Below, in pieces: positions 14,700-18,827 of a DNA stretch of 64,000 bases (the stretch's first letter is position 1; each line of letters begins with the position of its first letter). The notes beneath the pieces are model-generated. The model saw nothing but the letters and a program-made list of their open reading frames with translations. It did not search any database and was not told where the DNA came from. The stretch is from NCBI RefSeq assembly GCF_023715655.1, contig NZ_JAMBON010000002.1, positions 124,001 through 188,000 of the forward strand, read 5' to 3'. The translations under genes were made by a program, and so were the position numbers. The DNA is from Oceanobacillus luteolus. GTDB lineage: Bacteria > Bacillota > Bacilli > Bacillales > Amphibacillaceae.

Positions 14700-15572
14700 A
14701 TGAGAAAGCTTTTTGGTTTACTTGTATTGTTATTTGTATTGCTACTCGCAGCTTGCGGGAATGGTGGAAATGAAGAAAACACTGCAAATGATGCGGAAGA
14801 TGCAGACAACGCAACAGAAGATTCATCAGAATCAGTTGAACTTGTGATTGGTGCATCAAGTACGCCACACGCTGAGATTCTAGAGGAAGCAAAACCTTTG
14901 TTAGAAGAAGAGGGCATTAACATTACTATTGAAACATACCAAGATTATGTTTTGCCGAATGAAGACTTGGAATCAGGTGCACTGGATGCAAACTTCTTCC
15001 AGCATATCCCGTTCCTAGAGCAGACTGTTGCAGATACAGGGTATGATCTAGAGTATATTGATGGTATTCATATCGAACCAATGGGTGTATATTCTCAGAA
15101 CATCACCAACATTGATGATATTGAAGATGGACAAGAAGTGATCATCAGCCGTTCGATTCCAGACCATGGACGTATCTTATCCTTATTTGAACAACAAGGA
15201 CTTATCAAATTGGATGAAAATGTTGAGAAATCAGCTGCAACAATTGAAGATATCGTAGAAAATCCTAAAAACATCACATTTTCACCAGATGTAGATCCAT
15301 TGCTATTACCAGAAATGTATCAATCTGAGCCGGATGCATTGGTTGCAATCAACACAAACTATGCAATTGATGCTGGTCTAAATCCATTGAATGATGCATT
15401 GTTCATTGAAGATGAAAACTCTGAATATGTCAACATCATTGCAGTTCGTGGAGAAGACAAAGATGATCCTGCTCTTCAAACGTTAGTGGATGTCCTGCAA
15501 TCTGAAGAAATTCAGAACTTCATTCTTGAAACTTATGAAGGTGCAGTAGTTCCTGTAGGTGGAAATAACTAA
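14700..15572 (+). CDS. metQ: Methionine-binding lipoprotein MetQ
   Basis: A 290-residue NlpA-family lipoprotein with lipobox LLAAC (acylated Cys19), an acidic linker to about residue 45, and a binding domain starting VELVIGASSTPHAEIL. The GALDANFFQHIPFLEQ segment is the substrate-contacting signature of the family. It delivers methionine to MetP. Twenty bp after metP with an AAAGGAG site; a strong terminator follows. Confidence 0.94.
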   Translation: MRKLFGLLVLLFVLLLAACGNGGNEENTANDAEDADNATEDSSESVELVIGASSTPHAEILEEAKPLLEEEGINITIETYQDYVLPNEDLESGALDANFFQHIPFLEQTVADTGYDLEYIDGIHIEPMGVYSQNITNIDDIEDGQEVIISRSIPDHGRILSLFEQQGLIKLDENVEKSAATIEDIVENPKNITFSPDVDPLLLPEMYQSEPDALVAINTNYAIDAGLNPLNDALFIEDENSEYVNIIAVRGEDKDDPALQTLVDVLQSEEIQNFILETYEGAVVPVGGNN

Positions 15573-15593
15573 AAACACTGTATTACGAAGAAT

Positions 15594-15636
15594 AAGGAAG
15601 CATGAGCTTAAATGTTTATGCTTCCTTTTATTTTTT
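15594..15636 (+). terminator. metNPQ terminator
   Basis: AAGGAAGCAT / ATGCTTCCTT, 10-bp perfect stem with a 14-base loop, then a T-rich tail. Confidence 0.85.
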
Positions 15637-15768
15637 GACGGGAATTGTAAAGTACGTGTAAAAATCACTCTATACAGGTTTATTCGACCTTTGTGCAGGG
15701 AATTGTTCTGTGTTAACATTTTGTTTATCACATTAAAGGAGTGGTTTATTATCAATTCCGATAATAAC

Positions 15769-15939
15769 ATGAATTACACAGAAGATATGGAAAAAGCGAT
15801 GAGTAAAAATCACAGGATGAGCATCGCTGAATATGAGTCTAATCTGTCTAAACGGATGGAAGTAGAACTAAAACGTGAGAAAGAATATCAAGAATCGAAG
15901 CAGATTATCGCTGAAGTGGATAGTCAGCTGCATAGATGA
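15769..15939 (+). CDS. Small charged hypothetical protein
   Basis: A 56-residue, highly charged, probably helical protein (Lys/Glu/Arg-rich from residue 10 on). No family is recognised. The ATG at 15769 has no close ribosome binding site; AAAGGAG lies 27 bp upstream, with an in-frame ATT at 15748 at ideal distance, so an unusual ATT start is conceivable. A terminator immediately after the stop supports a real transcript end. Existence of the protein is uncertain. Confidence 0.45.
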   Translation: MNYTEDMEKAMSKNHRMSIAEYESNLSKRMEVELKREKEYQESKQIIAEVDSQLHR

Positions 15940-16692: not shown

Positions 16693-16844
16693 AGTTGCTT
16701 CACCTCTAGAATGTATTCTGTCTAGAATCTGTACCCCTTTTAAAAGAATCTAATCTAACAGACTAAGTAATTGGCTGAGATGTGCAGTTTTTATGTTGAA
16801 TAGCGAGGGTAAGTGATAGATATATCAATGAAGGAGGGGTTGAA

Positions 16845-18107
16845 TTGACGGCAGAAGTAGCAGTCTTGAATAAACATGGGATTGCCATGGCAGCTGATAG
16901 TGCAATTACAAGTGGAAGAGAAGGTATCCAAAAAGTTTATAATACAGCAAATAAGTTATTCGCCCTATCGGAAAAGCATTCTATAGGAATTATGGTATAT
17001 GGAGCGGCTTCTTTCATGGAGGTTCCATGGGAAGTAATCATCAAATCCTATAGAGAAGTGATATGTGATCGTACTTTTAATCATCTCCATGATTATATGG
17101 AAGACTTTTTAAGATTTTTGAATGAAGATGCTCGATTTAAAAATGAAGAAGTTGAAGAAATAATTGTTTATCGCATATTCTCGGATAATCTGAAACGTCT
17201 AGTCAAAGAAGTAGAAGAAAAAATGGCTAGTAAAGAACATATGGAAGAGGGCGTAACATCAGAACGTGTAACGAACTGGCTAGATGCATGCGCAGGTCGG
17301 ATGATTCAATCCTATAGAAAGCAAAGGAAATGGTTTATTGAACTTGAAGAAGCAGCTTTTAAAGAAAGATTTAGTTCTGTTGTAAATGAAGTTATCGATG
17401 AGTTGATTCGTTATGACATCCCTGATGAATTAATTGAAAAGCTTCACGAACTGGCTTATGAGGCAACGGTGAAGGATTATTTCAGTGTGGGAAGTACCGG
17501 ATTTGTTATTGGAGGATACGGTGATGAAGAAATATTCCCCCAGCTATTAAACTATAGACTGGAAGGATTTGTGTTTGGGCAGTTGAAATATAAAAAATTA
17601 AAGGATAAAAAAATAAGTTATACGACAGACAAGGATGATGGGACAGCCTCGATTACAGCTTTTGCCCAAAGAGATATGGTAGATTCCTTCATCAAAGGAA
17701 TCGAGCCGAATATGGAAGATGTGATGTTCCGAATCATTTCTAGCGTAATAAAAAACTATCATGATCAGATTCAAAAAAATCTTCGAATTGAATTTACCGA
17801 AGAAGAGGTTACTAAATTACAGAAAATGGGTAAAGAAGTGTATGATTCGATGGAAATTGCTGTAAAGGAATATCAAGAAAAGAATTATGTTGAGCCGCTG
17901 CTTGGGGTAGTACGCTCCCTGCCTAAGGAAGAATTGGCAGATATGGCAGAAGCCCTCGTGTCATTAACTACGTTTAAAAGAAGAGTGACAAGAGCAACTG
18001 AATCCGTCGGTCCCCCTATTGATGTCGCAGTTATTACTAAGGGAGACGGCTTTGTCTGGAAGAAGCGGAAAAGTTATATTGATCCACAAATCAACTCGCG
18101 ATTATAG
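16845..18107 (+). CDS. Stand-alone proteasome-like Ntn-hydrolase (candidate N-terminal Thr protease)
   Basis: A 420-residue protein starting at TTG, 5 bp after AAGGAGGGG. The second residue is Thr, so methionine removal would expose an N-terminal nucleophile. In mature numbering Thr1, Asp17 (GIAMAADSAITSG) and Lys36 (TANKLFAL) match the proteasome beta-subunit pattern (Thr1, Asp17, Lys33), followed by an IGIMVYGAASF strand. Residues about 65-215 are a charged helical insertion. VGSTGFVIGGYGD (about 222-234) looks like the return to the core fold, and the tail has GPPIDVAVITKGDGFVW. Beta subunits and HslV are about half this length. No ATPase gene is adjacent. Protease activity is inference; an enzyme of another Ntn type is possible. 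A 51-residue gene follows. Confidence 0.65.
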   Translation: MTAEVAVLNKHGIAMAADSAITSGREGIQKVYNTANKLFALSEKHSIGIMVYGAASFMEVPWEVIIKSYREVICDRTFNHLHDYMEDFLRFLNEDARFKNEEVEEIIVYRIFSDNLKRLVKEVEEKMASKEHMEEGVTSERVTNWLDACAGRMIQSYRKQRKWFIELEEAAFKERFSSVVNEVIDELIRYDIPDELIEKLHELAYEATVKDYFSVGSTGFVIGGYGDEEIFPQLLNYRLEGFVFGQLKYKKLKDKKISYTTDKDDGTASITAFAQRDMVDSFIKGIEPNMEDVMFRIISSVIKNYHDQIQKNLRIEFTEEEVTKLQKMGKEVYDSMEIAVKEYQEKNYVEPLLGVVRSLPKEELADMAEALVSLTTFKRRVTRATESVGPPIDVAVITKGDGFVWKKRKSYIDPQINSRL

Positions 18108-18128
18108 AGTTTGAAAGGGGAGAAGAAT

Positions 18129-18284
18129 ATGTTTCCTAAGGAAAAAAATTCAACAAAAGAAGGATATTTTCATTTAGCACCCGAGGATCGATTGGAATTT
18201 GAATTGGAAAATCAAGAAAAAGAAGAGAAAGAAATCATTACAGAGAAAGTATTTGATAGACTTAAGGAAAAAGATAGCCAATAA
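18129..18284 (+). CDS. Small acidic protein, probable operon partner of the Ntn-hydrolase
   Basis: A 51-residue protein starting MFPKEKNSTK and ending LKEKDSQ, very rich in Glu and Lys and predicted helical after residue 20. No Cys, no signal peptide, no recognised family. AAAGGGGAGAAG precedes the ATG, and it begins 21 bp after the Ntn-hydrolase stop, so the two are probably co-transcribed. It could be a regulator, inhibitor or substrate of the hydrolase; this is only inferred from position. Confidence 0.6.
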   Translation: MFPKEKNSTKEGYFHLAPEDRLEFELENQEKEEKEIITEKVFDRLKEKDSQ

Positions 18285-18425
18285 GGACCTTAAATTCAAG
18301 TTTAAGTATTATTAAAAATATTAAATCTAGAAAATTTATTTTCGTTTTATGTTTGAAATTCTATTATATGTGGAAAGCAATAAATGAAAGGCAAGATAAT
18401 CACATCATGAAAGGAGTTTTTACAA

Positions 18426-18827
18426 ATGGCTAAAAACAACAATAATGGTAAGATGTCTCGTCAGCAAGCAGGAGAAAAAGGTGGCAAAGCTACTGCAAGA
18501 AATCACGATCAAGAATTCTTTGAAGAAATCGGTCAAAAAGGTGGAGAAGCCACTTCCAGAAACCATGACCAAGAATTCTATCAAGAGATAGGTCAAAAAG
18601 GTGGAGAACAAACTTCAAAGAATCATGATCAAGAGTTTTATGAAGAAATTGGTCGTAAAGGCGGAGAAACAACTTCACAAAACCATGATCAAGACTTCTA
18701 TGAAGAGATTGGGCGTAAAGGTGGGGAAGCCACTTCCAGAAATCATGACCAAGAGTTCTATGAAGAAATTGGAGAAAAAGGTGGCAAAGCAAGATCCCGT
18801 TCACGTGACAACAACAATAATAACTAA
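18426..18827 (+). CDS. KGG-repeat (GsiB / LEA group 1-like) stress protein
   Basis: A 133-residue, extremely hydrophilic protein with five exact-length 20-residue repeats (residues 18-117), each of the form KGG-E-x-T-S-x-NHDQEFYEEIG, plus a final partial unit and an Asn-rich tail. This is the KGG/LEA-1 repeat seen in B. subtilis GsiB, a sigma-B general stress protein linked to desiccation and salt stress. AAAGGAG lies before the ATG. A possible sigma-B promoter (GTTTGA at 18351, 13 bp, GTGGAA) is weak. The product is probably disordered and protective. Confidence 0.85.
   Translation: MAKNNNNGKMSRQQAGEKGGKATARNHDQEFFEEIGQKGGEATSRNHDQEFYQEIGQKGGEQTSKNHDQEFYEEIGRKGGETTSQNHDQDFYEEIGRKGGEATSRNHDQEFYEEIGEKGGKARSRSRDNNNNN
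18477..18776 (+). repeat. Five tandem 60-bp coding repeats
   Basis: DNA-level tandem repeats that encode the 20-residue KGG units. Copies differ at many positions, mostly silent, so they have been diverging for some time rather than newly amplified. Confidence 0.85.

Follow-up and report, generated by a model that had tools for sequence, protein, structure and literature searches.

A proteasome-like hydrolase gene of Oceanobacillus luteolus and its small neighbor: a candidate mobile two-gene cassette with relatives in phages

The hydrolase considered here very probably belongs to a class that was already catalogued in 2021 as PMI-4, for "Proteasome homolog with Multiple Insertions" (Fuchs, Alva, and Lupas 2021, PMC8665760; this and all later statements on that paper refer to the parts of it available to us). 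PMI-4 proteins have a proteasome-like fold with a long insertion after helices H1/H2 and another between H3 and H4, occur in phages, Pseudomonadota, Bacillota, and Bacteroidota, and have no AAA+ partner (PMC8665760). The publication of the new proteasome-like classes offered no hint of function drawn from their genomic context, and it differs from the present account in giving neither the genomic context nor a partner gene of PMI-4 (PMC8665760). Here, we describe such a hydrolase gene and a small gene beside it in a 64,000-nucleotide stretch of Oceanobacillus luteolus DNA (contig NZ_JAMBON010000002.1, positions 124,001 to 188,000; hereafter the window, to which our coordinates refer). We favor, with a probability of roughly 55%, the reading that the two form a mobile accessory cassette, a hydrolase plus a dedicated small regulator, that was domesticated in Bacillaceae. 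What is new here is that the small gene is real, that the pair is a mobile accessory cassette, and that a Bacillaceae clade is nested among phage copies, to which a predicted sigma-B-type promoter and a KGG neighbor are added for that clade; set against the PMI-4 paper, the additions are the small gene, the mobile cassette, and the sigma-B branch. A literature search found no paper on a defense or prophage role of the hydrolase class.

The hydrolase gene (16845 to 18107, forward strand) starts with TTG, is preceded by the ribosome-binding site AAGGAGGGG (16831 to 16839, forward strand), and encodes 420 residues beginning with Met-Thr, as an earlier note on this DNA had read from the sequence alone. 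The N-terminal nucleophile (Ntn) hydrolase fold supposed in that note is indeed predicted: an AlphaFold model, from which all structural positions below are taken, shows the alpha-beta-beta-alpha core, and Foldseek matched it to proteasome subunits. The helical insertion placed by the note at about residues 65 to 215 corresponds to predicted helices between 62 and 209, and the model adds a second one, not named there, at about 288 to 358 between helices 276 to 284 and 361 to 381. Both agree with the PMI-4 description, in that extra helices at 101 to 209 follow what we read as H1/H2 and the helices at 288 to 358 lie between what we read as H3 and H4; this likeness rests on the published description and the order of elements rather than on a sequence comparison.

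Other proteasome homologs resemble the hydrolase less closely. With the 20S proteasome beta subunit and HslV it shares the core fold and equivalents of Thr1, Asp17, and Lys33, but it is twice as long, carries the helical insertions, has no Pfam match or adjacent AAA+ ATPase, and does not keep the Ser169 position. Anbu has about 235 residues and a C-terminal coiled-coil helix H5 (PMC8665760), whereas in the present protein only a short tail follows the last strand. The phage and host proteins PPH and AAH are likewise proteasome-like and were spread by phages, but they fall within group I, described as more compact and lacking insertions, and PPH is only some 140 residues long (PMC8665760). Connectase has a two-helix S3-S4 insertion and no H1/H2, whereas our model has no helix before residue 62, and its helices at 62 to 94 come after the early strands. 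In the databases, the full length of the hydrolase matched phrog_5990 (PHROGs v4; E, 4.7e-110), which is a sequence family only, of unknown function. Pfam, NCBIfam, PADLOC, and a single-sequence PDB search gave no convincing match: no proteasome family was among the Pfam matches at an E value of ≤10, and PADLOC (2023 library) gave only weak matches within the helical parts (best E, 0.006). Matches to DUF445, ribosomal protein L3, and GajB were dismissed as chance or helical bias.

The predicted nucleophile is Thr1 of the mature protein (codon 2), followed by Asp17 and Lys36, positions that the note had likened to those of the proteasome. Conservation was assessed in 139 full-length homologs, which remained from 147 loci after 143 had given a tblastn hit and four that were cut or started inside (L011, L049, L051, and L066; locus numbers are ours) had been dropped. 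Near-copies are among these 139, as are some genes that count as two loci; at <90% identity, 84 are left. Position 2, counted from the initiator Met, is Thr in 137 homologs and Ser in 2, and Asp18 and Lys37 are each kept in 139/139; because they are kept across all these homologs, their conservation is not a matter of chance. The two Ser residues belong to L054 and L055, from genomes of the phylum of L011. Gly53, which we read as the candidate for the oxyanion-hole Gly47, is Gly in 116, Asn in 15, Ser in 7, and Asp in 1. That the complete catalytic set is conserved argues for an active enzyme, and we infer with this support that the hydrolase is catalytically active. A dead proteasome-like scaffold without catalysis would fit with the loss of the Ser169 position, but the presence of Thr or Ser at position 2 and of Asp18 and Lys37 in all 139 homologs, from several phyla, makes this highly improbable.

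The small gene (18129 to 18284, stop codon included; forward strand) starts with ATG 21 nucleotides past the hydrolase stop codon, has its own ribosome-binding site, AAAGGGGAG (18114 to 18122, forward strand), and encodes 51 residues rich in Glu and Lys (8 Lys, 2 Arg, 3 Asp, and 12 Glu), all much as the note had it. Its reality and its linkage to the hydrolase gene are borne out by computation. A small downstream open reading frame (ORF) was found in 70/82 loci (dereplicated at 90%) under fixed criteria, namely, 40 to 75 codons, ATG or GTG, a start at −30 to +60 of the hydrolase stop, and a Shine-Dalgarno match of ≥3 bases; the same criteria were satisfied by 13/138 other long ORFs of these loci and 100/1640 shuffles. 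Twelve loci failed (L009, L020, L021, L032, L052, L054, L056, L062, L112, L114, L120, and L126), some on one count: the ORF is shorter in L020 and L062, further away in L009 and L032, and in L052, L054, and L056, all from the phylum of L011, present in other respects but without a Shine-Dalgarno match. The hydrolases of L021 (5001 to 6437) and L112 (4001 to 5398) extend further at the C terminus, and by these criteria neither is accompanied by a separate small ORF; such an extended tail might replace the partner. A motif-guided search found the small gene in 24/24 Bacillaceae loci, displaced twice, by 222 or 402 nucleotides. The ratio of nonsynonymous to synonymous substitution rates was computable for 12 of 16 Bacillaceae pairs and lay at 0.04 to 0.22 in 11 and at 0.42 in one, indicating purifying selection on a protein-coding gene (hydrolase, 0.04 to 0.13 in 12 pairs). 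Of the three findings that the note had named as refuting it, none appeared: the fold is predicted, the three residues are kept, and the small gene is conserved. Its description of an uncharacterized Ntn system, beside which a regulator, an inhibitor, or a substrate is encoded, is supported.

Across the family, the small proteins were compared as one choice per locus (n = 76; the representatives L016, L021, L065, L077, L112, and L119 were excluded). They are similar in size, and an aromatic-Phe motif, picked by eye, occurs in 37/76. The "acidic" character noted earlier holds for the 51-residue protein of the window but not for the family, in which the net charge is positive in 59/76. In a model of the hydrolase fused to the small protein, the latter forms a short and a long helix (predicted local distance difference test score, 61 to 81) preceded by a disordered stretch. 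A C terminus ending in GGE or GGQ, like that of Pup, occurs in 0/76. These properties bear on the idea of an enzyme-substrate pair, in which the small protein is cut by the hydrolase or joined to other proteins in the manner of connectase or Pup. The small proteins appear to be disordered but for a helical tail, and their genes adjoin that of the hydrolase; connectase, itself a proteasome homolog, is a ligase (PMC8665760). The absence of a Pup-like end, of an S3-S4 insertion such as that of connectase in the model, and of any one cutting or joining motif common to all branches speaks against such a pair, and we consider it unlikely.

The pair is distributed over phages, satellites, and plasmids. 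Relatives of the hydrolase occur in 13/50,697 phage records and 10/72,556 plasmids; a scan of viral contigs with our alignment A1 gave 172 matching stretches, of which 80 were kept, and the viral scan with the single hydrolase sequence found no relative. Relatives were present in 33/159 genomes of the window's family and 8/398 of its class, four of the latter outside the family (one match in each scan, G065 and G531, respectively, is a fragment). The phylum of L011 gave matches in 10/395 genomes, six strong and four weak (L057 to L060; E, 5.5e-7 to 7.3e-4), and the weak ones were left out of later work. In Escherichia coli, a short DNA match was found in 22/5426 genomes, and the whole gene was present in all four that were examined, in lambdoid prophage regions, where it adjoins the Q/holin side or sits between recE and a repressor-type gene (in one such region, L061, several phage genes are partial). 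In two of three examined Streptococcus satellites, though not in the third, the small gene comes last and the hydrolase gene just before it; the Javan85 record ends with the hydrolase gene. In the nearest phage relatives, L068 to L070 and L074, the hydrolase gene lies within about 1.1 kb after the endolysin gene, and in L103 it is beside a repressor gene. In our judgment, such positions, which in prophages are near lysis or repressor genes, are typical accessory slots.

Some copies stand out in other respects. On alphaproteobacterial plasmids (L021, L023, L064, and L065), a ubiquitin-like operon is found beside the proteasome-like gene: the hydrolase gene lies at most about 1.5 kb from a multiubiquitin-E2 gene, which adjoins a ThiF-type E1 gene, in two separate lineages and arrangements. 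In L064, a Rhizobium leguminosarum plasmid, the hydrolase gene is broken, with two tblastn pieces and a short annotated frame. Genome G158 carries two copies (L161 and L162) with a mutual identity of only 36%.

The mobile carriage raises the question of defense. The hydrolase could be an anti-phage or superinfection-exclusion effector that is silenced by the small protein, which would sense or be disturbed by an invading phage, with a stress-triggered version in Bacillaceae. The pair does occupy accessory slots in prophages, satellites, and plasmids, and some genomic copies outside Bacillaceae have defense-type genes within four ORFs: L152 has a GajB/UvrD-like helicase and type I restriction, L151 an HNH nuclease, L155 a mad3/AriA-like ATPase, and L153 PDC-S03, to which one AbiEi and one AbiEii match are added (an alignment of neighbor proteins, A3, left out 3 of 64, two very long and one overlapping). 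However, these are raw occurrences, uncorrected for background, the hydrolase itself has no PADLOC match, and the neighbors of the Bacillaceae copies give only generic PADLOC matches among the matches listed, so that defense islands are unsupported there. Nor is closeness to prophage ends significant (8/40 within 2 kb versus 4.7 expected; 40 of the 80 contigs). Defense is a possible explanation but less likely than not. Put in terms of the cassette, anti-phage use is its strongest special case. In the boldest version, again less likely than not, the pair would be a novel two-gene phage-conflict system based on the proteasome fold: a dedicated partner of roughly 50 residues would restrain a nonbarrel Thr hydrolase, phages, satellites, and plasmids would have spread the two over no fewer than three phyla, and halophilic Bacillaceae would have acquired them a single time to serve as a sigma-B stress effector.

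The phylogeny places the Bacillaceae copies among those of phages. In an IQ-TREE tree of 83 rows, from which L112 was excluded, all 19 chromosomal rows from Bacillaceae group together (100/100). Their clade, to which L068 is sister (100/99), sits within a larger one of 27 rows (99/90) that is otherwise viral. The Bacillaceae copies appear to have acquired a stress promoter. Upstream of the pair in the window, a predicted sigma-B-type element matches the consensus with GTTTTT (16787 to 16792), a 14-nucleotide spacer, and GGGTAA (16807 to 16812; forward strand). The published source, in the parts available to us, gives KTTTW-N12-17-GGGWAW as the consensus for Bacillales and lists a near-consensus site for gsiB (PMC9847131). 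Such an element lies 22 to 44 nucleotides before the start in 20/24 Bacillaceae loci versus 1/107 other copies (both sets include near-copies) and 3.6% of shuffles. Among the long ORFs of the Bacillaceae loci, 19/203 reach the same score, and 10 of these 19 are the hydrolase family gene. Sigma B is encoded in the window's genome (426 bits versus a cutoff of 315), and sigma-B control of the Bacillaceae pair is a supported, if indirect, reading of these promoter matches.

As the note had stated, a gene for a KGG stress protein follows (coding sequence, 18426 to 18827; PF10685; E, 3.4e-29). It has a sigma-B-like element of its own, GTTTGA-N14-TGGAAA (18351 to 18376; promoter score, 10), so that the feature spans 18351 to 18827 on the forward strand. 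KGG matches lie near the pair in 16/24 Bacillaceae loci, including loci without yetF and suf matches (flanks, 1.5 to 5 kb), and we regard the gene as an associated neighbor rather than an established part of the system. The promoter and this neighbor would also suit a plain ATP-independent housekeeping protease for damaged proteins, with the small gene as a linked but unrelated stress gene. However, the small gene accompanies the hydrolase in phages and other phyla in which neither sigma-B-type promoters nor KGG matches were found, and we give this explanation little credence.

We therefore favor a mobile hydrolase with a small regulator for stress or conflict, on the grounds of catalytic conservation, the defense-type neighbors, and the E1/E2 plasmid context. 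In such a cassette, the hydrolase would mature by removal of the initiator Met from Met-Thr, without a propeptide, and Thr1, with Asp17 and Lys36 close by, would act as the nucleophile. A normal proteasome barrel is probably prevented by the helical insertions, which may instead form a cap or docking surface, where the partner could bind and, as gate, inhibitor, or adaptor, set when the hydrolase acts. Conceivably, the pair is an accessory of phages, satellites, and plasmids from which the host cell gains help under stress or in phage conflict. An ancestor of halophilic Bacillaceae would then have taken it into the chromosome, under sigma B and often near a KGG gene; its role there is probably the control of protein damage.

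Several observations weigh against this interpretation. The proteasome Ser169 position is occupied by Val388 (in a colinear but weak profile match; E, 0.06), and the active site is therefore not a full copy of that of the proteasome. Between branches, the small proteins have mostly diverged too far for BLAST to link them, and they fall into six groups of 2 to 22 with 32/76 single; the Bacillaceae group does include the phage members L068, L069, and L074 to L076. In the fused model, which carries no interface score, the small protein is not confidently placed on the hydrolase. Furthermore, the bootstrap values of the tree are not fully settled, 4/24 Bacillaceae loci lack the sigma-B-type element, and the 22- to 44-nucleotide distance was chosen after initial promoter scores had been seen.

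The partner gene, the mobile carriage, and the stress promoter provide handles on one of the largest classes of this kind. Control of the hydrolase by the small protein would amount to a minimal form of regulation for a proteasome-type enzyme, one that needs no barrel; an antiphage role of the pair would give the proteasome fold a place in bacterial immunity; and the domestication, if true, would clearly exemplify the entry of two phage accessory genes into the general stress regulon of a bacterium.

As to the surroundings, no AAA+ unfoldase gene adjoins the pair in the window, as the note had remarked, and none was seen in the annotated regions examined. A YetF gene (Pfam) neighbors the pair, along with what we take, from their sequences, to be genes for a MetN/MetI/MetQ-type transporter and SufC/SufD. 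Finally, a 126-residue ORF (15559 to 15939) overlaps the end of the MetQ-like gene; since about 75 of its residues match L001 and L002 (66 to 69%), this position probably holds an unnamed gene that starts later and is shorter.
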